A stretch of DNA of 64,000 bases from Planctomycetota bacterium (lineage in GTDB: Bacteria; Planctomycetota; Phycisphaerae; UBA1845; UTPLA1), in contig JAATGM010000001.1 of assembly GCA_015654675.1 (NCBI GenBank), forward strand, positions 1 through 64,000, written 5' to 3'. The translations under genes and the position numbers were made by a program. The first letter of the stretch is position 1, and the number at the start of each line of letters is the position of its first letter. Shown piece by piece: positions 10,131 through 26,444 of this stretch. The notes beneath the pieces are model-generated. The model was not told the origin of the DNA and did not search any database. It saw only the letters and a list, made by a program, of their open reading frames with translations.

Positions 10131-11042
10131 ATGCCGCTGCACCTTGCAAACCCCGTCTCGTCAAAATCAACTGACCCCATCGGAATTTCCCGCCGCGCGT
10201 TTCTCGCGATTTGCGCCGCCGGTTGCGCCAAGTCCGTCCAACCCACCTACCCACCGACTGACGACTGGGCTCTGCTCGCCGATACGCACATCCAGGCCGA
10301 CCCCAAAGCGACCGCCTGGGATACATGCATGGCCGAAAACCTCGACCGCGCCATCGATCAGATTGCAACCCTCGATCCGCGCCACATTCTCTTCAACGGC
10401 GACGTCGCCTTCCGCGCCGGCGAGCCACCGGCGTACGCCCAATTCCTCAAAGCCGTCGATCGGCTGCCGAAGACCGGCCAGCTTCTGCACTTCACCGTCG
10501 GCAATCACGATCACCGCGCCAATTTCCTGTCCGCCATTCAAACACCACACGACGCGACCCTCGATTCCAAAGTCGTCTCGACCATCGGTGGACAAAACGC
10601 ACGCTATCTCCTGCTCGACACGCTCGAAAAGGTAAACGCCATCACCGGTGCGCTCGGTGACGCGCAGCGTTCATGGCTCGTCGCGCAACTAAACGCCGTC
10701 CCGAAGGACCCGACGATTCTCATTCTCCACCACAATCCTGACCTCTCACTCACCGGTCTAACCGACTCGTCGGCCTTCCTCGAAATCGTCCGCACCCACC
10801 GCCAGATCAAGGCGCTGATCTATGGCCACACCCACGAGTTTCGCATCGCCGATCTCGATGGCGTCCACCTGCTCAACCTTCCAGCCGTCGGCTACCGCTT
10901 CAACTCCAGAGAGCCGCTCGGTTGGGTGGAAGCACACATCTCGCCTGCCGGCGCCGATATTGAACTTCACTGCCTCGCCGGCACCAGCCCCCAATGCCGA
11001 GTCCACCGCAACCTCCCCTGGCGTCGCGATCGCGCGACATGA
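10131..11042 (+). CDS. Tat-exported calcineurin-like metallophosphoesterase
   Basis: This 303-residue protein carries the full two-metal phosphoesterase motif set: D51-x-H53, G90-D91, G124-N-H-D-H128, H200/H201 and G232-H-T-H235. A twin-arginine signal (SRRAFLAICAAGC, residues 20-32) ends in a Cys that fits a lipobox, so it is probably a Tat-exported lipoprotein acting in the periplasm on an unknown phosphoester. AAGGGG lies 5 bases before the ATG. It follows the lipoprotein gene at 9211 by 62 bases and precedes the DUF6599 gene by 85 bases, all on the plus strand. The substrate cannot be told from sequence. The family is broad, including cyclic-nucleotide, nucleotide and protein phosphatases. 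Confidence 0.85.
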   Translation: MPLHLANPVSSKSTDPIGISRRAFLAICAAGCAKSVQPTYPPTDDWALLADTHIQADPKATAWDTCMAENLDRAIDQIATLDPRHILFNGDVAFRAGEPPAYAQFLKAVDRLPKTGQLLHFTVGNHDHRANFLSAIQTPHDATLDSKVVSTIGGQNARYLLLDTLEKVNAITGALGDAQRSWLVAQLNAVPKDPTILILHHNPDLSLTGLTDSSAFLEIVRTHRQIKALIYGHTHEFRIADLDGVHLLNLPAVGYRFNSREPLGWVEAHISPAGADIELHCLAGTSPQCRVHRNLPWRRDRAT

Positions 11043-11127
11043 ATTGCACGCTCGGCTTTTGACATCCGTTATCAGCCCGCCTCTACTCTGGCGAGAGCCG
11101 TAGCCCCGTTTGGACCGATCAATCCCG

Positions 11128-12621
11128 ATGCCTACCCTCTTTGCCCGCCGGTACATGCGCGACGGACCGACCGCCACCGAGCGGATCATCGGCGTCGTCT
11201 GCCTGCTCCTGGTCGCTGCCATCACAATCAGCTTCGTCGCTTACGCAGTGCGCCACCGCGAGCCATTCTTCTCCGTCGATCCAACCCACGAACCCGCCGC
11301 CATCCCTCCCGAACTCAAGCACGCCCGCAGTCTATTGCCCGAAAGCCCCTCGCCGGGCTGGACGCGCCAGGACGCCGTCGCACTCACCCCCGATCAGGCC
11401 GCGCGCGCCCTCGCCGACGACGCCGAAAAATTCACTAAGGCCGGCCTGAAGAGACTCTACGAAGGCCGCTTCATCAGTCGCCTCGACTCGAAACAGCAGC
11501 TCACCGTGCGCGTCGCCGACATGGGAACGCCCGAAGCCGCGAAAGTAGTCTTCGACGCCGTCAAACCTGCAACCGCGGTCGGCGAGCCCGTCGGCGTCCG
11601 CGGTTGGCGAAACGGCGATGCAGCCGTTGGCTTTCAATCCGGGCGCTATTTCTCGCTCATCACTGCCAACAATGTCGCCTCCGGCGCGACGCTCACACCG
11701 CAGCTCCTCGCTCGCGAAGTCGCCGATCGCCAGATCGCCTACGACGCCTCCGCGCCGACCGCCGCGAAGCCCGACAAGAACGACAAGTCCGCAGCCGCGC
11801 CTGCCGCCGCCCTCCTGCCCACCGTCCCCGGCGGCGAGTGGAGCCCGGCCCAGGGCGTCGCCACCTACAACCCCGGCAACCTCTGGGAGAAAATCGACGG
11901 CCGCGCCGAGCAATACCTCGCCTTCGACTTTGAGCAGCTCGTCTTCGGTACCTACCGGCTCGCCGCCGACTCCGCCTCCTCGATCGACTGCTTCATCTAC
12001 AAAATGCGCGACCCCCTCAAGGCCTACGGCATTTTCCAGGCAGAGCGCTCCGGCCACCCCGAGTCCATCAAGCTCGGCAAGGAGGGCTATCGCACCAAGT
12101 CGAGCATTTTCTTCATAAAGGGCAAGGCCTACGTTCAACTCATCTCCGGAGAAGATTCGAAGGCAACGCCTGAACAATTCCTCGCGCTGGCGAACGCCAT
12201 CGCCGATTCCATCCCCGACGAAGGCGGCGGAAACTGGGCCGAAGCCCTCTTCCCGAAGAAGGACCTCGTCGAGGGCTCGTTCTCCTTCCAGCCTAAGAAC
12301 GCCTTCAGTCTCGACTTCCTTAACGACGTGTTCGCCGCCGAATATGAAGCGAACGGCGCCCACCTGACGCTCTTCATCCATCAGGCGCCCGACGAAGCCG
12401 CCGCCAAGAAAACCTTCGAGCTCTACGCCGACTACGTCCCCAAACAGGGAAAAATTGTCGAACGAGCCGCCTCTGACGGGGGCGAAACGCTCATCGCGGA
12501 TTTCGGCGGCGAGTATGATATGATCTTCTATAAAGGCCGGTATTTCGGCGGCGCAACCTCCGCCTCCGATCTCTCCGCAGCCAAATCGCGAATTGGCGAG
12601 CTTCGCGAGGCCCTCAAGTAG
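11128..12621 (+). CDS. DUF6599-family membrane-anchored protein
   Basis: From the ATG at 11128 this is a 497-residue protein; a TTG six codons earlier is less likely. A single transmembrane helix lies at about residues 18-40, followed by an exported domain. The second half carries the DUF6599 signature: an ATYNPGNLWEKIDGRAEQYL segment (about 248-267), then strands around IDCFIYKMRDPLKAYGIFQ and FIKGKAYVQLISGE. The first half (about 65-195) looks like a related, weaker copy with LTVRVADMGTPEAAKVVFDA and WRNGDAAVGFQSGRYF. The molecular function of DUF6599 is unknown; it often lies near redox or CO-dehydrogenase-like genes. It precedes the DUF362 gene by 42 bases, suggesting a shared operon and role with the Fe-S proteins that follow. 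Confidence 0.75.
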   Translation: MPTLFARRYMRDGPTATERIIGVVCLLLVAAITISFVAYAVRHREPFFSVDPTHEPAAIPPELKHARSLLPESPSPGWTRQDAVALTPDQAARALADDAEKFTKAGLKRLYEGRFISRLDSKQQLTVRVADMGTPEAAKVVFDAVKPATAVGEPVGVRGWRNGDAAVGFQSGRYFSLITANNVASGATLTPQLLAREVADRQIAYDASAPTAAKPDKNDKSAAAPAAALLPTVPGGEWSPAQGVATYNPGNLWEKIDGRAEQYLAFDFEQLVFGTYRLAADSASSIDCFIYKMRDPLKAYGIFQAERSGHPESIKLGKEGYRTKSSIFFIKGKAYVQLISGEDSKATPEQFLALANAIADSIPDEGGGNWAEALFPKKDLVEGSFSFQPKNAFSLDFLNDVFAAEYEANGAHLTLFIHQAPDEAAAKKTFELYADYVPKQGKIVERAASDGGETLIADFGGEYDMIFYKGRYFGGATSASDLSAAKSRIGELREALK

Positions 12622-12663
12622 CCGCGTACCTGTACGGCTGCAGATGGGCAACGGAGTCACCAC

Positions 12664-13836
12664 ATGAGTCACGATCATAGCGCCGAACAGACCAGCCCTC
12701 CCGGCGTCAGCCGCCGCGAGATGATGCTACGCGTCGGCGGCACACTGGCCGCTGTCGGCGGCTCCGTCTGGGCAGCGAAGCATCTCTACGATCCAAACGG
12801 CGACGCCGGCCTCCCCGTCCACGAGAAGGAGACGCTCAAGAACTACTTCGCCCCGCTCTTTGACGGCTGGTCGCCTTCCGACCCGCGCGTCAGTGTCGCC
12901 CGCGGCGCAGCAGTCGGTGAAGAGATTCCACGCGAGACTATTCAGAAAATGATCACCGCCGCCCTCGGCCCGATGGGCGGAATGTCACGCTTTATTGCCA
13001 AAGGTGACACAGTCCTCGTCAAGCCCAATGTCGCTTTCGATCGCGGACCGCGAATGGGCGCGACCACCAACCCCGACGTGGTCGCTGAAGTCATCCGAAT
13101 GTGCTTCGCCGCCGGCGCGAAGCGCGTCCTTGTCGCGGACAATCCCATCGAAAAAGCCGAACCCTGTTTCGCTAAATCCAAGATTCGTGAAGCCGCCGAA
13201 CGTGCCGGCGCCGAAGTCTTCCTGCCCGCCAATACCAGCTTCGCGCCAGTCGCCATTCGCGACCGCGACCCCGACCCGACCCGCAACGAAGCCCTGGGCA
13301 CCTGGGAAGTTTTCTACAAACCCCTGCGCCTTGCCGACAAAGTCATCGGTGTCCCGCCCATCAAAGACCACAACCTGTGCTTCGCCAGCATGTCCATCAA
13401 GAATTGGTACGGCCTGCTCTGCGGGCGCCGCAATCAGTTCCACCAGGCCATTCACGACATCGTCAGCGATCTCGGCATGATGATGAGCCCCACGCTTGTC
13501 CTTGTTGATGCAACCCGCGTCCTCATGAAGAACGGCCCAACCGGCGGCAAGCTAGAGGACGTCGCCGTCGGCGGCGTCGACGGCCGGCCCTGCATTGTCG
13601 CCAGCGTCGACCCGCTCGCGAGTGACGCCTGGTGCCTCCAGCACCTGCTCGGCCGCGACCCGGCCAACCTCCGCTACCTCTCGCTCGCCGAGCAAAAGAT
13701 CGGTCAGCGCATCGACGCCCGCAAACGAGCCGGCCCCGCCGCAGAAGGCCGCGTCGTCGCCGATGGCAAACGCTTCGCCTCGCGCGACTGGCAGGCCTAC
13801 GAACGCCAAGGACTGATCAAGGAGCAATCGGTGTAA
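12664..13836 (+). CDS. Tat-signal DUF362 protein
   Basis: A 390-residue DUF362 protein. The twin-arginine motif SRREMMLRVGG at residues 17-27 precedes a hydrophobic stretch, so it is probably exported folded, perhaps with a cofactor. DUF362 phrases include GDTVLVKPNVAFDRGP, TTNPDVVAEVIRMCFAAGAKRVLVADNP and PPIKDHNLCFASMSIKNWYGL. The domain is found alone or with ferredoxin domains in anaerobe-like redox clusters, but its reaction is not established. This copy has no ferredoxin cysteine cluster of its own. GGAG lies 9 bases before the ATG. It sits between the DUF6599 gene and, after the small DUF4160/DUF2442 pair, the polyferredoxin, which could supply the missing Fe-S function. Confidence 0.85.
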   Translation: MSHDHSAEQTSPPGVSRREMMLRVGGTLAAVGGSVWAAKHLYDPNGDAGLPVHEKETLKNYFAPLFDGWSPSDPRVSVARGAAVGEEIPRETIQKMITAALGPMGGMSRFIAKGDTVLVKPNVAFDRGPRMGATTNPDVVAEVIRMCFAAGAKRVLVADNPIEKAEPCFAKSKIREAAERAGAEVFLPANTSFAPVAIRDRDPDPTRNEALGTWEVFYKPLRLADKVIGVPPIKDHNLCFASMSIKNWYGLLCGRRNQFHQAIHDIVSDLGMMMSPTLVLVDATRVLMKNGPTGGKLEDVAVGGVDGRPCIVASVDPLASDAWCLQHLLGRDPANLRYLSLAEQKIGQRIDARKRAGPAAEGRVVADGKRFASRDWQAYERQGLIKEQSV

Positions 13837-13840
13837 ACCC

Positions 13841-14101
13841 ATGCCGGAAATCTCTCGCTTTTTCGGCATCATCGTGACCATGTACTTTGCAGACCATCCA
13901 CCACCCCATTTTCACGTGCGCTATGGCAACCGAAAGGGTCGATTCAGCATTGACGAGCCGCGAATGCTGGAAGGCGACCTTGGTCCACGCGCCCAGCGCA
14001 TGGTCGTCGAGTGGGCCGGCCAACATCTGGAAGATCTTCGCAAAGACTGGGAGCTTGCCCGATCCCGAAAACCGCTCGCACCCATCGCGCCACTCGAGTA
14101 G
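13841..14101 (+). CDS. DUF4160 small protein
   Basis: An 86-residue protein with the family core intact: MPEISRFFGIIVTMYFADH, then PPPHFHVRYG, an EGDLGPRA segment, and the WAGQHLEDLRKDWELAR helix ending PLAPIAPLE. It begins 4 bases after the DUF362 stop and precedes a DUF2442 gene by 11 bases. DUF4160-DUF2442 pairs are widespread two-gene units, often suspected of being toxin-antitoxin-like; that role is inference. Length and ends match the family, so it appears complete. Confidence 0.9.
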   Translation: MPEISRFFGIIVTMYFADHPPPHFHVRYGNRKGRFSIDEPRMLEGDLGPRAQRMVVEWAGQHLEDLRKDWELARSRKPLAPIAPLE

Positions 14102-14112
14102 TGAGATTCACC

Positions 14113-14394
14113 ATGAATCGTGATATCACCAAAGTACACCCGCTTTCGGATCATCGCCTTGAGCTGACTTTTGAAGGTGGCGAGCGTCGCTTGGTGAAGG
14201 TTTTGGATATCGTCCCATTCGACGGGGTCTTTGCCGACTTGAACAATCGAGAATTCTTCGAGAGCGTGCGCGTAGAGCCGACAATCGGAACAATTGTTTG
14301 GCCGAACGGTGCGGATCTGTGTCCCGATGTCCTTTACGAGCGCAGTGTTGCAATCGAACCCGAGTCCTTGACCGGTTCAAACGTGAGACGATAG
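14113..14394 (+). CDS. DUF2442 small protein
   Basis: The ATG at 14113 gives 93 residues with the DUF2442 pattern: ITKVHPLSDHRLELTFEGGE, VKVLDIVPFDGVFADLNNRE, FFESVRVEPTIGTIVWPNGADLCPDVLY (read as consecutive blocks). It is the partner gene of the DUF4160 protein. Both use noticeably less GC-rich codons than the flanking redox genes, for example GAAGGTGGC and GTGAAGGTTTTGG, hinting at later arrival. Function is not established. Confidence 0.88.
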   Translation: MNRDITKVHPLSDHRLELTFEGGERRLVKVLDIVPFDGVFADLNNREFFESVRVEPTIGTIVWPNGADLCPDVLYERSVAIEPESLTGSNVRR

Positions 14395-14434
14395 GGCGCG
14401 TCCATTAGGAACTCGACCGAGCCGTAGGATCCAC

Positions 14435-16672
14435 ATGCGAATCACCACCGTCCGCATCCTGGTCCAGATCGTCGTCTTCTCGCTCTTCATCGCCTTCTGC
14501 GTGCTTACGACTTTCCGCTTCGTCGACGAGCATCACGGCCAGTTCTGGATCAGCAAGTTCCTCGAAATCGACCCATTGGTCGGCATCGCCACCGCCATCT
14601 CCACCGGTACCGTCTACAAAGGCCTCGCCTGGGGCCTCGTCCTCCTGATCCCCACGCTTCTCCTCGGCCGCATCTTCTGCAACTGGATCTGCCCCTACGG
14701 CATCCTCCATCAGTTCATCGGCTGGGTCTTCAACACTCGCACCGCCAAGGACCGCATCGACTCCAACCGCTACCGCGGCATCTTCGCCTTCAAATACTGC
14801 ATCCTGATCGCGATGTTCGTCGCCCTCCTCGGCCAGATGAGTCTTGCGGTCCTGATTTCAGGTGCTGCCGTCGGACTTGTGTGCGGCGTCGCGGCCCTCG
14901 CCATCGTCATGACCACCAAATCCAAACAGACGGCGCGCAATCTCCTCATCGGCGTCGCCGTCATTGGAATCATCGCAACCTGCCTCGGCGCGCGGCAGCT
15001 CCACAAGGGCGACTGGAACGGAACCCTCCAGATCGGCCTGCTCGACCCGATCTGCCTCCTCCATCGCAGCTTTACCGCCGCCGTCCTTCCCGCCCTGAAC
15101 ATGCCCACCGCCGTTCAACAGGGCGTCCCCGGCGTCTTCTCCGGACTGGGAGACAACAAGCAGCACATCGGCGCATGGCTCATCGGCACGATGCTACTCG
15201 CCCTCGTGGCCGCCAACCTCTTCATCCCGCGCTTCTTCTGCCGCGTCCTCTGCCCGCTCGGCGCGTTCCTCGGAACCATCTCGCGCTTCGCCCTGTGGCG
15301 CATCGAACGCGATCCCCACAAATGCACAGACTGCGACCTTTGCCTCACCTCCTGCGAAGGCGCCAGCGACCCTCAAACCCAACTCCGCAAGAGCGAGTGC
15401 TTCGTCTGCTTCAACTGCATCGAAGACTGCCCCCACGACGCCCTCAGTTTCAAGTTCGTCGCGCCCAAGGCCCACGAAGTCGCTGGACCCGACATCCGCC
15501 TCCGATCTGGTGTCCTCGCCGCCGTGACCGGCTTCCTCTTCTATCCCCTGGCCCGCGCCGCCGGTAAGACCACCAAAGACTTCTCCGCCAGCAATCTCAT
15601 CCGCCCACCCGGCTCATGCGAAGAATTCGAATTCCTCGAGCGCTGCATCAAGTGCGATCAGTGCATCCGCGTCTGCCCAACCAACGTTCTCCAGCCCTAT
15701 CACTTCGACCTGCAAAACCTCGAAGCCCTCTGGACGCCCGTGATGAACTTCCGCATGGGCTACTGCCAGCTTCACTGCACCGCCTGCGGCGAAGTTTGTC
15801 CCACCGGCGCGATCCAGCGCATCGGCGTCGAACAAAAACTAGGACTCGGCGCCTACAGGGATGTCGGCCCCGTCGTCCTCGGCACCGCTCACTACGACCT
15901 CGGCCGTTGCCTCCCCTGGAGCATGAAGCGCCCCTGTGTCGTCTGCGAAGAGGTCTGCCCAACTTCCCCCAAGGCCATCTATACCGAGCGCATGGAGTTC
16001 CTCGAGCGCGACGGCAAGAAAGTCGTTCGCTCAGCGACCGCCAACACCGTCACCGTCGGCGAGTTGCCCCGCCCCGGCGAGTTCGAGCCCGAGCCCGCCG
16101 TGTTCCGCGCCAATCAGTTCCGCGGCGACGGAACCACCACCTACTGCCTCGAAGTCATCCACAAGTCCGGCGTCCGCGAAACTCACGACATCAAACGTAA
16201 CGACGCCGACACCCTCGAAATCGACGGCCAGTTCGACCAGCTCCCCCAGCCAGGCGAGTTCGCCGTCGTGAAATACGAGTGGAAAGTCCCCAAAATCGAC
16301 ACCAACTACTGCATCGGCTGCGGCCTGTGCGAGCAGGAATGCCCCGTCGTCGGTGATCGCCGCGCGGTCTATGTCACCGCCGAAGGCGAAAGCCGCTCCG
16401 CCCGCGAGCCCAGCCGCGAACGCAACCGCGGCCTGAATCTCAACAAGCTCGTCGAGGCCGGCGGAACCCGACGCGACGCCCTCTTCAGTCTCACCGGTCT
16501 GATCGCAACCGCCGAGCCAAAGCCAAAATCCTCATCCGGCTGTTGCGGCGGAGGCAGCAAATCATCCGGCTGTGGATGCAGCTCAAAGGCCCCGACCGCG
16601 AAGTCAAAATCGGCGGCAGAACCCCCAACCATCGATCTCCGCTCGTTCCTGAACAATCGAAATTACGGGTGA
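14435..16672 (+). CDS. Membrane polyferredoxin (NapH/NapG-like fusion)
   Basis: This 745-residue membrane protein is likely to carry electrons between the membrane quinone pool and Tat-exported partners. The N-terminal NapH-like part (residues 1-290) has about six transmembrane helices and two CxxxCP sites (CNWICPYG at 82 and CRVLCPLG near 268). Ferredoxin-type 4Fe-4S motifs follow: CTDCDLCLTSCEG with CFVCFNCIEDCP (about 297-332), CIKCDQCIRVCP (about 405), CTACGEVCP (about 449), CVVCEEVCP (about 503) and CIGCGLCEQECP (about 627). The LIRPPGSCEEFEFLERCIKC junction resembles the start of mature NapG, so it reads as a NapH-NapG fusion with extra cluster sites. The tail (about 700-720) is Ser/Gly/Cys-rich. 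AGGA precedes the ATG. No nap catalytic gene is present, so the donor or acceptor is unknown. Confidence 0.85.
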   Translation: MRITTVRILVQIVVFSLFIAFCVLTTFRFVDEHHGQFWISKFLEIDPLVGIATAISTGTVYKGLAWGLVLLIPTLLLGRIFCNWICPYGILHQFIGWVFNTRTAKDRIDSNRYRGIFAFKYCILIAMFVALLGQMSLAVLISGAAVGLVCGVAALAIVMTTKSKQTARNLLIGVAVIGIIATCLGARQLHKGDWNGTLQIGLLDPICLLHRSFTAAVLPALNMPTAVQQGVPGVFSGLGDNKQHIGAWLIGTMLLALVAANLFIPRFFCRVLCPLGAFLGTISRFALWRIERDPHKCTDCDLCLTSCEGASDPQTQLRKSECFVCFNCIEDCPHDALSFKFVAPKAHEVAGPDIRLRSGVLAAVTGFLFYPLARAAGKTTKDFSASNLIRPPGSCEEFEFLERCIKCDQCIRVCPTNVLQPYHFDLQNLEALWTPVMNFRMGYCQLHCTACGEVCPTGAIQRIGVEQKLGLGAYRDVGPVVLGTAHYDLGRCLPWSMKRPCVVCEEVCPTSPKAIYTERMEFLERDGKKVVRSATANTVTVGELPRPGEFEPEPAVFRANQFRGDGTTTYCLEVIHKSGVRETHDIKRNDADTLEIDGQFDQLPQPGEFAVVKYEWKVPKIDTNYCIGCGLCEQECPVVGDRRAVYVTAEGESRSAREPSRERNRGLNLNKLVEAGGTRRDALFSLTGLIATAEPKPKSSSGCCGGGSKSSGCGCSSKAPTAKSKSAAEPPTIDLRSFLNNRNYG

Positions 16673-16745
16673 TACCCAGTCCCAATTTGCCGTTACAATA
16701 TCTAGACAATCGGTCGAGCCAGTCGCCAGAAAGGAGTCGCTTCCA

Positions 16746-17957
16746 ATGTCCTTCAACCTGTCAGACGCAACGCGACGAGGATTCATCAAAGCCGGAGCAG
16801 CCGCCGCAGCCATTTCGGCCATCCCCTCAGTCCGCGCCGATGACGATGCTGCCCCGAAAGCCAAAGACGCCCCGCCCCTGCCGACCCGCAAGCTCGGCCG
16901 CAGCGGCGTCGAAGTCAGCATCCTCAATCAGGGCTGCGCCGTAAACATCACGCCGCGACTCCTCGACTACGCCTATGCCAAGGGCATCCGCTATTTCGAT
17001 ACCGCTGATTGCTACGGTCGCGGCCAGAGCGAGAAGGTCGTCGGTAAGTGGTTCGACAAGACCGGCAAGCGAAAAGAAATCTTCCTCGTCACCAAGTGTC
17101 ACCCCCACGGCGGCCCGAAGGAAATGGTAGGCATGGTCGACGAGCGGCTCGAAGCCCTCAAGACTGACTACATCGACCTCTTCTTCATGCACGCCCTGTG
17201 CGACAAGGAATACCCCGCCGAATCCGTCAACTGGCCCAAAAGCGACGAGTTCAAAGAGGCCAGCGAAAAGCTCAAGAAGAGCGGGAAGGTCAAGCTCGTC
17301 GGCTTCTCGACCCACGCCGACGAACGCGCCGAAGCCCTCTCCAACGCCGCCGAGGGCGGTTTCGCCGACGCGATCATGGTCAAGTACGACCCGCGCACCA
17401 AGAAAAGCGACAAGATGAACGCCGCCCTCGACAAGTGCGTTAAGGCCGGCATCGGCCTCATCGCCATGAAGACGCAGAGCAGCTCCCAGGCCTTCAAGGA
17501 TCGCTGGGCCAAGCTCACGAAGTCCAGTCTCTCCGTGCAGCAGGCCGTCGTGAAAGGTGTCCTCTCCGACGAACGCCTGACCGGCATGACCTCCCACATG
17601 GAGAACCTCAAGCAGATCGACGAAAACACGGCCGCCGCCCGCGACATCAAGATGGCCGCCGCCGATCACGATCTCCTGATGAGTCTCTACGCCGAAGGCC
17701 CGCACTATATGTGCGAGGTGTGCGGCGGCGAGTGCGCCGACGCAATTGGCCGGCCGAACGCCCTGCACGATGTCACCCGCAGCGTCATGTACTACGAGCG
17801 TTACGGACATCGCAGCACTGGCCGCGAGCTTTATCAGTCGCTCGCCCCGAACATGATCAACCTGTCCGATGAAGAACTCGGCATGGCCGCCGCCGCCTGC
17901 AAGGACGGCCTCGACTATCCGGCCATCTTCGCCAAGGCCCGGCGCTACTTCGGCTAG
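16746..17957 (+). CDS. Tat-signal aldo/keto reductase with Cys cluster
   Basis: A 403-residue aldo/keto reductase. The twin-arginine signal TRRGFIKAGAAAAAISAIP is at residues 9-27. The (beta/alpha)8 barrel keeps the catalytic set: Asp in YFDTADCYG, Tyr in the same motif, Lys in FLVTKCHPHGG and His in DLFFMHAL. A C-terminal extension has CEVCGGEC (about 322-329), which could bind metal or an Fe-S cluster, as in Fe-S-containing AKR relatives. NAD(P)H is not expected in the periplasm, so a folded, cofactor-loaded enzyme or a non-canonical electron donor is implied; that is inference. AAAGGAG lies 9 bases before the ATG. The gene follows the polyferredoxin by 73 bases. Confidence 0.88.
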   Translation: MSFNLSDATRRGFIKAGAAAAAISAIPSVRADDDAAPKAKDAPPLPTRKLGRSGVEVSILNQGCAVNITPRLLDYAYAKGIRYFDTADCYGRGQSEKVVGKWFDKTGKRKEIFLVTKCHPHGGPKEMVGMVDERLEALKTDYIDLFFMHALCDKEYPAESVNWPKSDEFKEASEKLKKSGKVKLVGFSTHADERAEALSNAAEGGFADAIMVKYDPRTKKSDKMNAALDKCVKAGIGLIAMKTQSSSQAFKDRWAKLTKSSLSVQQAVVKGVLSDERLTGMTSHMENLKQIDENTAAARDIKMAAADHDLLMSLYAEGPHYMCEVCGGECADAIGRPNALHDVTRSVMYYERYGHRSTGRELYQSLAPNMINLSDEELGMAAAACKDGLDYPAIFAKARRYFG

Positions 17958-20170: not shown

Positions 20171-20788
20171 GTGGGCCGTTATTTCGCCGACATCTGGGAC
20201 ACCCTCAAGACCATCTCCATCGGGATGGGAATCACCCTCAAATACTGCTTCGCCAAGACCGTGACGGTCCAATACCCGGACATGGCCCCGGTCCTCCAGC
20301 CGCGCTACCGCGGGTTCCACTGGTTCGAAGCCGAAAAGTGCATCGCCTGCGATCAGTGCGCGAAGGCCTGCCCGGTCGATTGCATCTACATCGAAAAAAC
20401 CGGTGCTCGAAAAATCGACAAAGCCACCGGTGAAGCCATCGGCGGGGCCCTCACGCGCTACGCCATCGACTACTCGAAATGCATGTTCTGCGCCCTCTGC
20501 TGCGAGCCGTGTCCGACCGACTGCATCCACATGGGCAACAACCACGACTTGAGCGCCTTCACCCGCAAGGAAATGGTCGTCGAGTTCACCGACCTCGCGA
20601 AAGAAGGCAAGCAGACACCCGAGCCAATCTGGATGCAGAAGGAAAAACTGCCCGCCTGGGCCGAAGAAAGAAAGCGTCAGTGGCAGGATCGCGCCGCTCC
20701 CGTGAAGGACGCCATGCTACGCGCCCTCCAGGCCAGCGAAGCGAAGAAACCCGCACCCGCCGCCCCGGCGCCGGCCGCGACAAACTGA
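20171..20788 (+). CDS. nuoI: NADH-quinone oxidoreductase subunit I
   Basis: A 205-residue complex I Q-module subunit that carries clusters N6a and N6b and relays electrons towards NuoB. Both 4Fe-4S motifs are intact: C57-x2-C60-x2-C63-x3-C67 and C104-x2-C107-x2-C110-x3-C114. The GTG start at 20171 has GAGGT 7 bases upstream. The C-terminal Lys/Pro/Ala-rich tail (about 150-205) is longer than in E. coli. It is the first gene of the operon, whereas nuoA normally leads and nuoI lies between nuoH and nuoJ. Confidence 0.95.
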   Translation: MGRYFADIWDTLKTISIGMGITLKYCFAKTVTVQYPDMAPVLQPRYRGFHWFEAEKCIACDQCAKACPVDCIYIEKTGARKIDKATGEAIGGALTRYAIDYSKCMFCALCCEPCPTDCIHMGNNHDLSAFTRKEMVVEFTDLAKEGKQTPEPIWMQKEKLPAWAEERKRQWQDRAAPVKDAMLRALQASEAKKPAPAAPAPAATN

Positions 20789-20801
20789 GGAGCCGCCCCC
20801 G

Positions 20802-21257
20802 ATGCCCAATGAAAGCGCAAATCTGGTCCTCGGCCTCTTCCTCTTCATGGTCGGCGGCATCGCCATGGTGCTTGCCCCGCTGACCATCGGAAAGCTCGTC
20901 CGTGCCCGGCTTCCGCACCCCGAAAAAGACGCCCCCTACGAATGCGGCGAACCCGCCATCGGCCCGAGCTGGGTCCAGTTCGATTTGCGTTTCTACGTCG
21001 TCGCCCTCGTCTTCATCATCTTCGACATCGAAATGGCACTGTTCTATCCGTGGGCAGTCGTCTTCCGCTCCGCCGGAATCGCCGCCCTCTGGGACATGCT
21101 CATCTTCTTCGCATTGATCGTCGTCGGTTTCCTCTACCTCTGGCGCTTCGGCTATCTCAACTGGGTCCGCTCCACCGCCAGCACCAGCAAGCCCTCCGAA
21201 AAAGAGCTTCTCGCGAAGCCGAGTGCCCTGTCAGCCGCAGCGCGGCAGTGGGCTTGA
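20802..21257 (+). CDS. nuoA: NADH-quinone oxidoreductase subunit A
   Basis: A 151-residue three-helix membrane subunit at the junction of the Q-module and membrane arm. It has PYECGEPAIGPSWVQFDLRF, the conserved loop, followed by FIIFDIEMALFYPWAVVF. GAGGAG lies 9 bases before the ATG, and nuoI ends 13 bases upstream. A short Ser/Lys-rich C-terminal tail extends the usual length. Confidence 0.95.
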   Translation: MPNESANLVLGLFLFMVGGIAMVLAPLTIGKLVRARLPHPEKDAPYECGEPAIGPSWVQFDLRFYVVALVFIIFDIEMALFYPWAVVFRSAGIAALWDMLIFFALIVVGFLYLWRFGYLNWVRSTASTSKPSEKELLAKPSALSAAARQWA

Positions 21258-21284
21258 TCAGGCACGACTGCAAGGAACTCCTCC

Positions 21285-21809
21285 ATGAGTTGGATCGAAA
21301 ACCGATTTGAAGAGGGCCTCATCGTCACCTCGCTCGACTGGGCCATCAACTGGGGCCGCTCCAACGCCATCTGGCCCATGACCTTCGGCCTCGCCTGTTG
21401 CGCCATCGAGATGATGGCCGTCGGCGCCAGCCGCTTCGACATCGATCGTTTCGGCGCGGGCGCCTTCCGCGCCACCCCGCGTCAATCCGACCTCATGATC
21501 GTCGCCGGCACCGTCACGTACAAAATGGCCAGCCGCGTGAAGCGCCTTTACCACCAGATGCCCGAACCGAAATACGTCATCGCCATGGGCGCCTGCACCA
21601 TCGGCGGCGGCCCCTACTTCAAGCACGGCTACCACGTCGTAAAGGGTGTCGACCTCGTCGTCCCCGTCGATGTCTACGTCCCCGGCTGCCCGCCGCGCCC
21701 GGAGGCCCTGCTCGAAGGTCTCATGCGTCTGCAAGACAAAATTCGCGGCCAGTCCATCGCCAAGGATCGCTGGCGTGACGTGAAGGAAGAGGCCTTCGCC
21801 TCCGCGTGA
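21285..21809 (+). CDS. nuoB: NADH-quinone oxidoreductase subunit B
   Basis: The 174-residue subunit that holds the terminal 4Fe-4S cluster N2, which reduces quinone. The cluster ligands are C38-C39, C104 and C135. Conserved phrases [30 protein letters not shown] and [17 protein letters not shown] are present. AAGGA precedes the ATG, 27 bases after nuoA. Confidence 0.96.
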
Positions 21810-21813
21810 AATC

Positions 21814-22380
21814 ATGACCATTGAAGGCATTGCCAATCTGCTGAAGGAAAAGTTTCCCGACGCCGGCATCGAAGCCCGCCTAGAGAGCCGCCACCCGCAC
21901 GTAATCGTAAAGCCCGAACACTGGCTCACGGTCGCCGAGTTCCTGCGAAACGATCCCCAGTTGAAATTCGACTGGCTCCGCTGCATCACCGGCGTCGACT
22001 ACATCGAAGACAAGCAGCTCGCCGCCATCTACGACTTTCACTCAACGCAGCGCCCCGCCCAGTCCGACGGCCTGTGGTCCGCCCGCGGCGAGCTATCAGT
22101 AAAGGTCCTCGCGCCCCGCGACAACCCCATGGTCCCCAGCGTCTGCCACCTCTGGGGCGCGGCCGATTGGCACGAGCGCGAAACCTACGACCTCGTCGGA
22201 ATCAATTTCCAGAATCACCCCGACTCGGTCGACGATCTCAACGGCCGCCATCCGCGCCGCATCCTCTGTCCCGACGATTGGCAAGGCCACCCGCTCCAGA
22301 AGGACTACGAATTCCCGCTCGAATATCACGGAATCCCCGCCGTCACCGAGTTTGGACAAACTCGGCCGCTGCACGGTTGA
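21814..22380 (+). CDS. nuoC: NADH-quinone oxidoreductase subunit C
   Basis: The 188-residue 30-kDa subunit of the Q-module, encoded separately from nuoD. It keeps SVCHLWGAADWHERETYDL and a C-terminal RRILCPDDWQGHPLQKDYE motif. It starts 4 bases after nuoB with no strong Shine-Dalgarno, suggesting translational coupling. Confidence 0.94.
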   Translation: MTIEGIANLLKEKFPDAGIEARLESRHPHVIVKPEHWLTVAEFLRNDPQLKFDWLRCITGVDYIEDKQLAAIYDFHSTQRPAQSDGLWSARGELSVKVLAPRDNPMVPSVCHLWGAADWHERETYDLVGINFQNHPDSVDDLNGRHPRRILCPDDWQGHPLQKDYEFPLEYHGIPAVTEFGQTRPLHG

Positions 22381-22398
22381 CCAGACGCGAGAACCCCG

Positions 22399-23583
22399 AT
22401 GGCTGACACCGTCCTCGAATCCCGCCCCGACCTGAACCTCGACGTCGTCCGCGACGAAATCGGCGACGTGCGCACCGAGGAAATGCTCGTCAATATGGGT
22501 CCGCAGCACCCCTCCACGCACGGCGTGCTCCGCATCGTCCTCCGCACCGACGGCGAGATGGTCCTCGAAGCCGTGCCCCACATCGGCTACCTCCACCGCT
22601 GCGCCGAAAAAATCGGCGAAAACGTCGCCCCCTATCAATACATCCCCTACACCGACCGAATGGACTATCTCGCCGGGATGAACAACAACCTGGCGTTCTC
22701 GCTCGCGATCGAAGCCCTCACCGGCCTCGAAGTTCCCAAGCGTGCCCAGGTCATCCGCGTCATCTTCGCCGAGATGAACCGCATCGCCTCGCACCTCGTT
22801 TCAATGGGCGCTTACGGCCTCGATATGGGCGCGTTCACGCCATTTCTCTACGCCTTCCGCGAACGCGAGCGCATCCTCGATCTCTTCGAGGCCTCCTGCG
22901 GAGCCCGCCTCACCTACAGTTATATCACCATCGGCGGCGTAACCGACGACGTCCCCGAGCGCTTCATCGATGTCTGCCGCGAATACCTCGACTACTTCGA
23001 GCCCAAGATCGCTGAATACAACAACCTGCTTTCGTTCAATCACATCTTCGTGAAACGCACCGCCAATGTCGGCATCATCTCCGCCGAAAAAGCCATCAAC
23101 TGGGGCCTATCAGGGCCAAGTCTCCGCGGCAGCGGCGTGAAATGGGATCTTCGCAAAGTCCATCCCGATTGCGGCTACGACGAATACGACTTCGACATCC
23201 CCGTGGGCCAGGGCCTTAAGGGCCAGCTCGGCGACTGCTGGGACCGCTATTTCGTCCGCATCCAGGAAATGCAGCAATCCGTCCGAATCGTCCGCCAGGC
23301 CCTCGACAAACTCGCCGGCACGCCGGGAGAGTACAAACACAAGTCGGGCAAGTCGGTCAAACTCCCGAAGGACGAAATCTATTACGAAATCGAAGGCGCT
23401 CGCGGCCAGCTCGGATTTTTCATCCAGGGCGACGGCTCGCAAATCCCTTACCGCGTCAAAGCTCGCGGCCCCAGTTATTGCAATCTTTCAATCACCAACG
23501 AGGTCGTCAAAGACTGCCTCCTCGCCGACGTCCCCGCCATCATCGGCTCGATTGACGTCGTCATGGGCGAGGTTGATCGCTGA
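22399..23583 (+). CDS. nuoD: NADH-quinone oxidoreductase subunit D
   Basis: The 394-residue 49-kDa subunit that forms the quinone-binding site with NuoB. Signature residues are in MGPQHPSTHGVLRIVLRTDG and the C-terminal DVPAIIGSIDVVMGEVDR. The PHIGYLHRCAEKIGE and QYIPYTDRMDYLAG motifs are complete. It ends 157 bases before nuoH, the only large gap inside the nuo cluster. Confidence 0.96.
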   Translation: MADTVLESRPDLNLDVVRDEIGDVRTEEMLVNMGPQHPSTHGVLRIVLRTDGEMVLEAVPHIGYLHRCAEKIGENVAPYQYIPYTDRMDYLAGMNNNLAFSLAIEALTGLEVPKRAQVIRVIFAEMNRIASHLVSMGAYGLDMGAFTPFLYAFRERERILDLFEASCGARLTYSYITIGGVTDDVPERFIDVCREYLDYFEPKIAEYNNLLSFNHIFVKRTANVGIISAEKAINWGLSGPSLRGSGVKWDLRKVHPDCGYDEYDFDIPVGQGLKGQLGDCWDRYFVRIQEMQQSVRIVRQALDKLAGTPGEYKHKSGKSVKLPKDEIYYEIEGARGQLGFFIQGDGSQIPYRVKARGPSYCNLSITNEVVKDCLLADVPAIIGSIDVVMGEVDR

Positions 23584-23688
23584 CCCCTCAACTTTGTGGA
23601 AATCCCGTCGCCTCAGGCGCTTAAGTCGCGAAGTGCTCTCTGCTGATTGCCATGCAAACCTCTTCCAATCCCAACCCGATTCGCTATA

Positions 23689-23708
23689 TTCGTGAAACTA
23701 TTCACGAA
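23689..23708. promoter_or_regulatory. Perfect inverted repeat between nuoD and nuoH
   Basis: TTCGTGAA and TTCACGAA form an exact 8-base inverted repeat around ACTA, 33 bases before the nuoH GTG and in the only sizeable gap of the nuo cluster. It could be an operator for a dimeric regulator or a small RNA hairpin; no T-run follows, so a terminator is unlikely. Confidence 0.5.
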
Positions 23709-23740
23709 CCGGCCGGTCGGCCGTCCTGAAAGGCAGCGCG

Positions 23741-25594
23741 GTGTCACAGGCGACAATTCCATGGATTGAACCCGTCCCCGAAAAGCGGGTCGCCATGCGC
23801 CGTAAGGCCCTGCTCGTCCTCTTCGGAGGCGGCCTCACGGCCCTCATCGTCGGCTGCGTCATGCTCGGAGTTTTCCGCGCCCTCCCCGACCAGGTCGGCA
23901 CCATCGTCTTCATCCTCGCCGGTGTCCTCCCGATTCTCGGCGGCCTCGGCCTCATCCCGCTCGGCCTGCTTAACGGCAGTGTCGTCCTCACAACACTCGG
24001 CTTCGCCCAGATCGGCATCGGCGCCCTCGTAGGCGGCCTGCTCAAGGCAACACCGATCGATCCCCTAGTCGTCGGCGTCTTACTACTTGTAATCGGCCCA
24101 ATCGCTGCCGGCCTCGCCATGCTCACCGCCGCCGGCGTCATCGTGGCCTTCAAACAAGTTGTCCAACTTCTTCTCATGCGCTGGACAGCCCTCATCCTCT
24201 TTTGCGGCGGAATCGTCTCAATCATCCTGCTCGTCTGGGCCCATGCATTCGTCTTCCGCTACGTCGCCCAACTCGCGAATGACACAACCCTTAACACATC
24301 CGCCACCACGACCTTCGGCGGCGATCTCACCATCGCCGAGCTTTCGACGCGCTTCAGCGGAAATTGGCGCCCCGTCGCATTTGTCCTCTGGCCCCTGCAA
24401 TTCGGCCTCATCCGCGACCTCATCGCCATGGGCGGCGTCATCGGCTTCATCAGCATCATCCCGCTCTACACCATCTGGTGGGAACGCAAAGTCGCCGGCC
24501 GCATCCAATCCCGGCTCGGCCCCATGCGTGTCGGCGGCTGGCACGGTTGGGCCCAGTCCTTCGCCGACGGCATGAAGCTCATCTGCAAGGAAGATTTCGT
24601 CCCGCCCGAAGGCGACGGCACGCTCTTCCGCCTTGCCCCCTATCTCGCATTCGTGCCCGCCATCTGCGCCTTCATCGCCCTGCCCTTCGCAACCACCTAC
24701 GTCTTCCGCGACCTCGACGTCGCCCTGCTCTTCATCCTCGCCATGCTCGGCATCGAAGTTCTCGGTGTCATCATCGCCGGCTGGGCCAGCAACAATAAAT
24801 GGAGCGTGTACGGCGCGATGCGCGAGGCCTGCCAGATGGTCTCCTACGAAATCCCGATGGGTATGGCCCTGCTCGTACCGGTCATGACCGCCGGCGCCCT
24901 CCGCCTGACCGACATCGCCAAACTCCAGCAGGATGGCTTCGGATCCTGGCTCGCCTGGAATAATCCGTTCTGCCTTATCGCCTTCTTCTGCTACTACACC
25001 GCCTCGCTCGCCTCCTGTAAGCGCGCCCCGTTTGATCTGCCCGAGTCCGAATCCGAACTCGTCGCCGGCTTCCACACCGAGTACAGCGGCTTCCGCTGGT
25101 CGCTCTTCTTCTTCGCCGAATACGCCGCCATGTTCGCCGTCTCCGGCCTCGCCGTGATTCTCTTCCTCGGCGCGTGGTATGGCCCGCTTCCGCTGAGCTG
25201 GGCCCCGGCCGGCAACGACATCGCCTCCGCCGTTGTTCGCGGCCTGCTCTTCGACGGCCCGATCCTCTTCATCCTCAAGTGCGGCCTCTTGCTCTACGTC
25301 CAGATCTGGATTCGTTGGACGCTCCCGCGCATCCGGATTGACCAGGTGCTCTACGCCTGCATCCAGGTCTTGTTGCCGCTGACCATGCTCGTCGTCCTCG
25401 GCAGCACGTTCTGGCTGCTCTTCGACAACAGCGCCCATCCCGCATTCGAAAGCTTTGCAAAAGTTGTTCGCGGGCTTCTGTCGCTCGTCGGCGTCGTCAT
25501 TTCAATCGCCATCGCCGGCTTCATCATCTTTGGTTTCGTGAACCGTCGCCGCCTCGTCGGCACCCTGGCCATCGAACACTTCCCCGGGAGCTGA
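23741..25594 (+). CDS. nuoH: NADH-quinone oxidoreductase subunit H, N-terminally extended
   Basis: A membrane-arm subunit that couples quinone reduction to proton pumping. The core (about residues 215-617) has the family motifs: WWERKVAGRIQSRLGPMRVG, a later KEDFVPP loop and RAPFDLPESESELVAGFHTE. The protein is 617 residues, well above the common 330-430. Its first ~215 residues form about five extra transmembrane helices (for example near 22-44, 54-77, 80-100, 107-130 and 148-170) that I do not recognise. The GTG start with an AAAGGCAG leader lies 157 bases after nuoD. The extension is in frame without any break, so it is part of the same open reading frame unless the true start is internal. 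Confidence 0.9.
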   Translation: MSQATIPWIEPVPEKRVAMRRKALLVLFGGGLTALIVGCVMLGVFRALPDQVGTIVFILAGVLPILGGLGLIPLGLLNGSVVLTTLGFAQIGIGALVGGLLKATPIDPLVVGVLLLVIGPIAAGLAMLTAAGVIVAFKQVVQLLLMRWTALILFCGGIVSIILLVWAHAFVFRYVAQLANDTTLNTSATTTFGGDLTIAELSTRFSGNWRPVAFVLWPLQFGLIRDLIAMGGVIGFISIIPLYTIWWERKVAGRIQSRLGPMRVGGWHGWAQSFADGMKLICKEDFVPPEGDGTLFRLAPYLAFVPAICAFIALPFATTYVFRDLDVALLFILAMLGIEVLGVIIAGWASNNKWSVYGAMREACQMVSYEIPMGMALLVPVMTAGALRLTDIAKLQQDGFGSWLAWNNPFCLIAFFCYYTASLASCKRAPFDLPESESELVAGFHTEYSGFRWSLFFFAEYAAMFAVSGLAVILFLGAWYGPLPLSWAPAGNDIASAVVRGLLFDGPILFILKCGLLLYVQIWIRWTLPRIRIDQVLYACIQVLLPLTMLVVLGSTFWLLFDNSAHPAFESFAKVVRGLLSLVGVVISIAIAGFIIFGFVNRRRLVGTLAIEHFPGS

Positions 25595-25614
25595 CGCCGC
25601 CGCGCTGACCAACC

Positions 25615-26124
25615 ATGAACGTCAACACCTGGCTTGAGCCCATCGTCTTCTTCCTATTCGCTGGCGTGGTGCTTTTCTCCGCCATCGGCATCGTCCTCAC
25701 GCGCAATATCGTCCGCGCCGCCCTGTTCCTTCTCGGGACGCTCGGTGGCGTCGCCGGCCTTTACTTCCTCCTCATGGCCAACCTGCTCGCCGCCATCCAA
25801 CTCATCGTCTACGCCGGCGGAACCCTCGTCCTCATCGTCTTCGGCGTCATGCTCACCAGTAAGTCACCCTGGGTCCGCTTTGCCCCATCGCGCAGCGAGG
25901 CGGCCGCCGCCACCACAATCGGCCTCGTCCTCTTCGCGGCGCTTGCCAAAATCGTCACGGGCATCGACTGGACCGTCGCCGCCCATCCCGCCGATCAGCC
26001 CGCGACCGTCCGCCAGGTCGGCAACCTGCTCCTACAGCAATACCTCGTCCCTTTCGAAGTCGCTTCGGTTCTCCTGCTCGTTGTCATGATCGGCGCGGCC
26101 TATCTCGCCCGTCCGGAGAACTGA
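25615..26124 (+). CDS. nuoJ: NADH-quinone oxidoreductase subunit J
   Basis: A 169-residue membrane subunit with five predicted helices and the conserved IVLTRNIVRAALFLLGTLGG and AAIQLIVYAGGTLVLIVFGV segments. It lies 20 bases after nuoH and 4 bases before nuoK. Confidence 0.93.
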   Translation: MNVNTWLEPIVFFLFAGVVLFSAIGIVLTRNIVRAALFLLGTLGGVAGLYFLLMANLLAAIQLIVYAGGTLVLIVFGVMLTSKSPWVRFAPSRSEAAAATTIGLVLFAALAKIVTGIDWTVAAHPADQPATVRQVGNLLLQQYLVPFEVASVLLLVVMIGAAYLARPEN

Positions 26125-26128
26125 CCCA

Positions 26129-26440
26129 ATGACCTCGATCGGCCTCCAACACTACCTCCTCCTCGCCGCGGCCCTTTTTTGCCTCGGCATCCTCACCATG
26201 ACGCTCAAGCGAAACGCCATCGGAATCCTCATCGGCGTCGAGCTCATCTTGAATGCCGCCAACCTCAACCTCGTCGCGTTCACCCGCTATCGAACAGGCG
26301 CGATTGACGGCCAGATCGTCGCCGTCTTCATCATCCTGCTTGCCGCCGCCGAAGCGGCCATCGCCATCGCCATCTTCATGAACTTCTACAACAGTCTCGC
26401 CACGATCGACGTCGATCGCGCCGACCAATTGCAGGGCTGA
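26129..26440 (+). CDS. nuoK: NADH-quinone oxidoreductase subunit K
   Basis: A 103-residue three-helix antiporter-like subunit. It has MTLKRNAIGILIGVELILNA, with the membrane Glu, and IILLAAAEAAIAIAIFMNFY, with the second. It is tightly packed between nuoJ and nuoL, with 4-base gaps. Confidence 0.95.
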   Translation: MTSIGLQHYLLLAAALFCLGILTMTLKRNAIGILIGVELILNAANLNLVAFTRYRTGAIDGQIVAVFIILLAAAEAAIAIAIFMNFYNSLATIDVDRADQLQG

Positions 26441-26444
26441 CCCG

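Follow-up and report, generated by a model that had tools for sequence, protein, structure and literature searches.

A conserved DUF6599-DUF362-NapHG gene module of Planctomycetota and other phyla, with a LarA-like exported DUF362 protein and a possible role in periplasmic redox chemistry

The first 64,000 nucleotides of contig JAATGM010000001.1 from a Planctomycetota bacterium (NCBI GenBank assembly GCA_015654675.1; this whole stretch is called the window here) hold a run of genes for predicted exported and iron-sulfur redox proteins. The locus raises the question of whether these genes belong together and, if they do, what their products might do. A preliminary description had grouped five of them into one redox cluster. 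All five lie on the + strand within 10131-17957, as described, and each significantly matches a protein family, but the phosphoesterase falls outside the conserved unit and a DUF2442 gene interrupts the run. The remaining four, listed below, almost certainly form a real conserved system. We lean modestly towards reading this system as a quinone-linked periplasmic oxidoreductase whose DUF362 protein would carry a tethered hydride cofactor, the nickel-pincer nucleotide (NPN). The twin-arginine translocation (Tat) motifs and the aldo/keto reductase (AKR) named in the list are taken up below.

11110-12621 as called, better start ATG 11128, + strand: DUF6599 protein (Pfam PF20244, 3e-54)
12664-13836, + strand: DUF362 protein with Tat motif SRREMM and a LarA-like fold (Pfam PF04015, 2.8e-36)
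14435-16672, + strand: NapHG, a fused polyferredoxin of 745 amino acids (NCBIfam NapG 6.7e-18 and NapH 7.9e-16, both under the curated cut-offs)
16746-17957, + strand: AKR with Tat motif TRRGF (Pfam PF00248, 7.6e-31)

The later start of the DUF6599 gene is preferred because its homologues begin MPTxFxRxYMR.

Conservation and membership of the unit

Using the window proteins in tblastn searches of wide loci, we found the gene order DUF6599, DUF362, NapHG, often followed by the AKR, in the same family, in the same taxonomic order and in other classes of the phylum; DUF6599 was found in 40 of 199 genomes of the phylum. Named GTDB genomes were scanned with the NapHG alignment alone, which yielded 80 loci in which the partners of NapHG are independently sampled. 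Partners were counted when adjacent and on the same strand, in the 48 NapHG loci with at least 3 kb of flank on both sides. DUF362 stands beside NapHG in 46 of these and DUF6599 in 42, and both are present in 41 of the 48, so that the co-occurrence in unrelated genomes expected of a true system is found. The AKR is present at 22 of the flanked loci.

The NapHG loci span a dozen or so phyla overall, among them Planctomycetota, Acidobacteriota, Desulfobacterota, Myxococcota, Verrucomicrobiota, SAR324 and Hydrogenedentota, and were also found in Gemmatimonadota, Sumerlaeota, Armatimonadota, Chromatiales, Bacteroidota and Nitrospinae. The arrangement varies: Acidobacteriota have NapHG followed by DUF6599 and two DUF362 genes, and in several planctomycete genomes (loci L094-L098 and L101) DUF6599 is fused to the C terminus of NapHG as one polypeptide of ~820 residues. 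Since the same gene order recurs across phyla, the neighbourhood is far beyond chance. That the run is a chance assembly of unrelated redox genes might be suggested by its content, which also takes in the phosphoesterase, the DUF2442 gene and a TPR membrane protein gene and abuts a nuo operon, but this explanation is refuted by the direct gene fusions and by a gene order that is kept across a dozen or so phyla; we give it practically no probability. Loci carry no AKR gene, one, two or three (three in L129) while the other three genes stay single (L113, L116, L129, L147), suggesting a core of DUF362, NapHG and DUF6599 with the AKR as an exchangeable module.

No function is known for two of the four families. 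The combination of families was undescribed in the open-access literature searched (for DUF6599, for DUF362 with NapH and for a Tat AKR with a polyferredoxin), a search whose scope left out most subscription journals and preprints. Within this literature no described system joins NapGH-like wiring with LarA-like cofactor chemistry, and the system is in that sense new in kind.

Two further genes of the run have Pfam matches and lie outside the conserved unit:

10131-11042, + strand: Tat lipoprotein metallophosphoesterase, calcineurin-like, with SRRAFLA plus a lipobox Cys (Pfam, E 1.2e-11)
14011-14394, + strand: DUF2442 gene between DUF362 and NapHG (Pfam PF10387, 1.7e-14)

Neither has a homologue in the related loci, including the closest relative, L065, and the conserved unit therefore comprises four genes. 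The phosphoesterase is not beside the module even in a 75%-identical relative and is apparently a recent neighbour. On the 3' side of the AKR gene lie the TPR membrane protein gene and then the nuo (complex I) operon from 20171, whose genes within 20171-29000 run in the order nuoI-A-B-C-D-H. A link of the module to complex I was considered and rejected, as the nuo adjacency is shared only by the same-family locus L065.

Other genes adjoin the module elsewhere. The gene for polynucleotide phosphorylase, pnp, lies ~3 kb from the NapHG-DUF6599 fusion or the DUF6599 gene in L094, L095, L097, L098 and L103. In Acidobacteriota and one planctomycete the module is adjoined by an AmmeMemoRadiSam pair, consisting of a radical SAM protein with a Tat-like N terminus and a MEMO1/AMMECR1-like protein, together with an additional DUF362 and a membrane protein resembling spermidine synthase (L084:14061-18041, L167:4704-7275, L173:15541-18392, L177:12269-15119, L180:12313-15161).

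NapHG, DUF6599 and the aldo/keto reductase

The third conserved gene proved to be an exact fusion of NapH and NapG. Where five or six 4Fe-4S sites had been proposed for this polyferredoxin, we count six, two in the NapH part (8 Cys) and four in the NapG part (16 Cys). Across ten aligned sequences, none of the 24 cluster cysteines varies, nor does either of the NapH-type CX3CP motifs; the predicted membrane segments fall in the NapH part. The invariant features lie in the window as follows:

14678-14695, + strand: first NapH CX3CP motif, C82-P87
15239-15256, + strand: second NapH CX3CP motif, C269-P274
15323-15430, + strand: NapH-part ferredoxin with two 4Fe-4S sites, C297-C332
15644-16342, + strand: NapG part with four 4Fe-4S sites, C404-414, C444-455, C492-508 and C626-636

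This inventory, two CX3CP motifs with 2+4 clusters, is that of the NapGH quinol dehydrogenase of periplasmic nitrate reduction and its MauM/MauN and NosGH relatives. The likeness extends to a hydrophobic segment ahead of the NapG part; there, at the boundary between NapH and NapG, the Parabacteroides distasonis homologue retains the twin-arginine sequence RRTFLSAG, as expected if NapG had been fused with its signal kept as a membrane segment. In contrast to NapGH, NapHG is one polypeptide, and its partners are DUF6599, DUF362 and the AKR rather than NapAB. We call it NapGH-like, not NapGH, because it scores far under the curated cut-offs (64.8 vs 269 bits for NapG and 58.3 vs 213 bits for NapH); a search of PDB with the NapHG profile gave no match at 1e-5. 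By analogy with the established role of NapGH, NapHG very probably exchanges electrons with quinone. The window protein also has a hydrophobic insertion of ~66 residues (NapHG 131-196, window 14825-15022), which seems to add two membrane segments and which, among the aligned sequences, is found elsewhere only in L065 and L066.

DUF6599 is predicted to have one N-terminal membrane segment (residues 20-38) and periplasmic alpha/beta domains. In its alignment no position is invariant, Cys and His are not conserved, and there are no conserved metal ligands. Compared with PDB, the model of this protein (pLDDT 88.6) had no match at E<=1e-3; the best, TP0453 at 1.1e-3, is uninformative. The simplest reading would be that DUF6599 is a scaffold.

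The Tat signals assigned earlier hold at the level of the motif, the twin arginines being invariant in 39 DUF362 proteins and the N-terminal twin-arginine motif being present in 44 of 45 AKR homologues. The AKR shares with canonical aldo/keto reductases (PF00248) an intact tetrad, D85/Y90/K117/H149, kept in 44, 43, 45 and 45 of the 45 homologues. It differs from them in its Tat signal, in a C-terminal four-cysteine site and in having no conserved NADPH-phosphate basic residues. The CxxCxxxC site already described is confirmed, and a fourth, invariant cysteine, C385, brings the putative ligands to four:

17712-17735, + strand: C323xxC326xxxC330, putative 4Fe-4S ligands (kept in 45, 44 and 43 of 45 homologues)
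17898-17900, + strand: C385, putative fourth cluster ligand (45 of 45)

This pattern of conservation suggests that Cys323, Cys326, Cys330 and the distant Cys385 may be ligands of one 4Fe-4S cluster. Positions 282-288 of the AKR hold no conserved Lys or Arg, whereas the canonical enzyme 5dan has PK..R there. In canonical AKRs the basic residues of this region contact the NADPH phosphates, and their loss, judged from the alignment, argues against free NADPH being used in the ordinary way.

AKRs typically act on small carbonyls and sugars, and the intact tetrad and the AKR copy number of none to three per locus, which would suit substrate diversification, bear on a different explanation of the module, that of a maturation or repair system in which quinol electrons reduce a protein or lipid target, for instance an exported metalloprotein or an envelope lipid, rather than a catabolic or respiratory oxidoreductase. 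No sugar or organic-acid genes were seen travelling consistently with the module, the commonest recognisable extra neighbours being larBCE, the AmmeMemoRadiSam trio and the spermidine-synthase-like membrane protein, and the DUF6599, DUF362 and NapHG genes are mostly single copy, all of which would fit such a system. The properties of the AKR argue against it, and we regard it as improbable.

DUF362, LarA and the nickel-pincer cofactor

DUF362 and the LarA family belong to the same Pfam clan, CL0471 (PMC11770544). An AlphaFold model of the window DUF362 protein, for which 39 aligned sequences were used, is a confident one (pLDDT 88.7, pTM 0.83), and its 12 matches to PDB at E<=1e-3 are all LarA-like, with the nickel-pincer lactate racemase 5huq at the top. 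A sequence search of PDB gave no match, and hhalign of the 39-sequence DUF362 alignment against a four-sequence LarA alignment gave nothing useful. Once the DUF362 set had been broadened and LarA was represented by eleven sequences, hhalign singled out one stretch, in which His236, Lys246 and His260 pair with LarA His174, Lys184 and His200 (LarA numbering taken from the L. plantarum LarA sequence). Its score of 31.5 is above all of 200 column-shuffled controls (mean 15.7, standard deviation 3.1, maximum 27.7). In the work on 5huq, the tethering lysine and the nickel ligand of LarA are residues 184 and 200. LarA has a tethering lysine, a nickel-ligating histidine and the catalytic histidines His108 and His174 (PMC12611868). 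The corresponding DUF362 residues, with the twin arginines, are invariant in 39 sequences, those of the twin arginines coming from many phyla:

12712-12717, + strand: Tat twin arginines R17-R18
13369-13371, + strand: His236, paired by hhalign with LarA catalytic His174
13399-13401, + strand: Lys246, paired by hhalign with LarA Lys184 (thioamide tether of the cofactor)
13441-13443, + strand: His260, paired by hhalign with LarA His200 (nickel ligand)

These three residues (H/K/H) are also kept in the other DUF362 subtypes sampled, some with LarA-like spelling (GHLFAGFGGAIK vs SHFFAGFSGGRK). A DUF362 protein of ~437 amino acids without an obvious Tat signal (L275:9656-10966 in G000:C38) is widespread in the window's family and might use the same cofactor in the cytoplasm.

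The genes for NPN biosynthesis, larB, larC and larE, are linked to DUF362 in several lineages. Directly upstream of the module, larE-larC-larB occur in six Acidobacteriota loci and larC-larE-larB in the Chromatiales locus L154; larE lies downstream of it in the Planctomycetota locus L112. Outside the module, larB is 2.4 kb from DUF362 in genome G157, and on a 2.35-Mb Streptomyces plasmid larE-larB-larC lie ~5 kb from the sole DUF362 match. This adjacency is more specific evidence than genome profiles, which point the same way. The window's own genome has larC and larE, with LarA not detected. LarA was found in no genome of the family and larC in 15 of 17; the two exceptions, G203 and G206, also lack any DUF362, and no other genome of the family does. 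At the curated cut-off of the larE model, larE was present in 16 of 16 LarA-negative genomes tested that have DUF362 and in 0 of 8 that do not, a difference that is supportive but not independent because those eight had partly been picked for lacking larC. Genomes with the module have larC in 44 of 50, and 7 of the 9 among them without LarA have it. In the controls Synechococcus elongatus and Haloferax volcanii, larC and DUF362 were detected and LarA was not. The three biosynthesis genes occur without larA in about 15% of genomes, notably those of cyanobacteria, and the protein that uses NPN in them is as yet unidentified (PMC11796402, mBio 2024).

With its best fold matches, its H/K/H equivalents and its linkage to larB, larC and larE, the DUF362 protein looks like a member of the LarA superfamily, and it probably binds NPN. 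It differs from the LarA nickel-pincer racemases and epimerases in that it has neither a Lar_N match nor a His108 equivalent, and is predicted to be exported by Tat and to be coupled to a polyferredoxin. All 39 DUF362 proteins of the system match the Npun_F2552 family (NCBIfam NF052623; best 2.6e-23), whose function is undescribed in the literature searched; the window protein differs from this family in reaching 54 bits against a cut-off of 500 bits.

A number of observations weigh against NPN binding and against the oxidoreductase built on it. TM-scores between DUF362 and LarA are low, about 0.34, so the fold similarity is only partial, and the HH-suite probability of their alignment is just 11%. 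The position of the second LarA catalytic histidine, His108, is not His in DUF362, and PF04015 is the sole Pfam match reported for the window protein, with none to Lar_N. Because the His108 equivalent is not conserved, we do not file DUF362 as LarA and limit the claim to its possibly holding the same cofactor; LarA homologues with a single histidine do exist (PMC12611868). Across the phylum the larC trend is weaker, 33 of 37 LarA-negative genomes with DUF362 having larC vs 41 of 71 without DUF362. There are also 41 planctomycetes with larC in which neither LarA nor DUF362 was detected, and there must therefore be other NPN users, whether a further protein or a divergent relative, or users that the models fail to pick up. 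In most genomes several DUF362 types coexist, and genome profiles therefore cannot be assigned to the one in the system. Bacteroidales carry a Tat DUF362-NapHG pair, and in the Bacteroides ihuae control DUF362 is present and no larC was detected. Nor is larC detectable in four genomes with DUF362, of which G142, G157 and G218 have larE and G182 has neither gene. Finally, with the basic NADPH-phosphate contacts lost, the hydride source of the AKR is left unexplained.

Some of these observations would suit a NapGH-like quinone-linked chain in which the DUF362 fold and its H/K/H serve another metal, a structural lysine or a different covalent cofactor. The DUF362 proteins of G142, G157, G182 and G218 keep H/K/H in the absence of detectable larC, B. 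ihuae has DUF362 without it, and the fold is also seen outside the described NPN enzymes, in 4nar, a Thermotoga protein deposited as a putative uronate isomerase. Against another cofactor stand the lar genes beside DUF362 in several unrelated lineages, the tracking of DUF362 by larE and larC in LarA-negative relatives, and the presence of larE in G142 and G157, the latter with larB adjoining DUF362. We consider this alternative rather unlikely.

A candidate route for electrons and its significance

In the quinone-linked oxidoreductase that we favour, NapHG, as a single-chain equivalent of NapGH, would move electrons between the quinone pool and its four periplasmic 4Fe-4S sites, and DUF6599, held at the membrane by its anchor or by fusion to NapHG, would be the periplasmic scaffold of the presumed complex. 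DUF362 would be loaded with NPN in the cytoplasm and exported folded via Tat, to act outside as a tethered nicotinamide-like carrier of hydride or electrons. The Tat-exported AKR, with its predicted 4Fe-4S site, would be the exchangeable substrate module that sets the substrate range, reducing or oxidising a carbonyl or alcohol compound outside the cytoplasm; electrons might run in either direction. The tethered pyridinium of NPN would thus play the part of NAD(P)H there, and NapHG would connect it to the quinone pool. Such a niacin-derived carrier would resolve a puzzle raised in the preliminary description, that NAD(P)H is not expected outside the cytoplasm. More tentatively, and with slightly less than even confidence, we suggest that DUF362 proteins may be the long-sought non-LarA users of NPN, and that in this system the cofactor may be exported on a Tat substrate for net redox chemistry outside the cytoplasm, where it would stand in for NAD(P)H in tethered form and connect with the quinone pool by way of NapHG.

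In this module the envelope biology of some dozen phyla gains a conserved respiratory unit, whose hosts include the cultured sulfate reducers Desulfoferrobacter suflitae and Desulfacinum infernum. It also gives a candidate function to look for in two DUF families. If DUF362 does bind NPN, this would answer the question of which proteins use the cofactor in the LarA-less genomes noted above (PMC11796402), many of them cyanobacterial, and could explain NPN synthesis without LarA in cyanobacteria and haloarchaea. The role of NPN would then widen from isomerases with hidden redox steps to net electron transfer, and the system would show how hydride chemistry may be possible where free NAD(P)H is absent.

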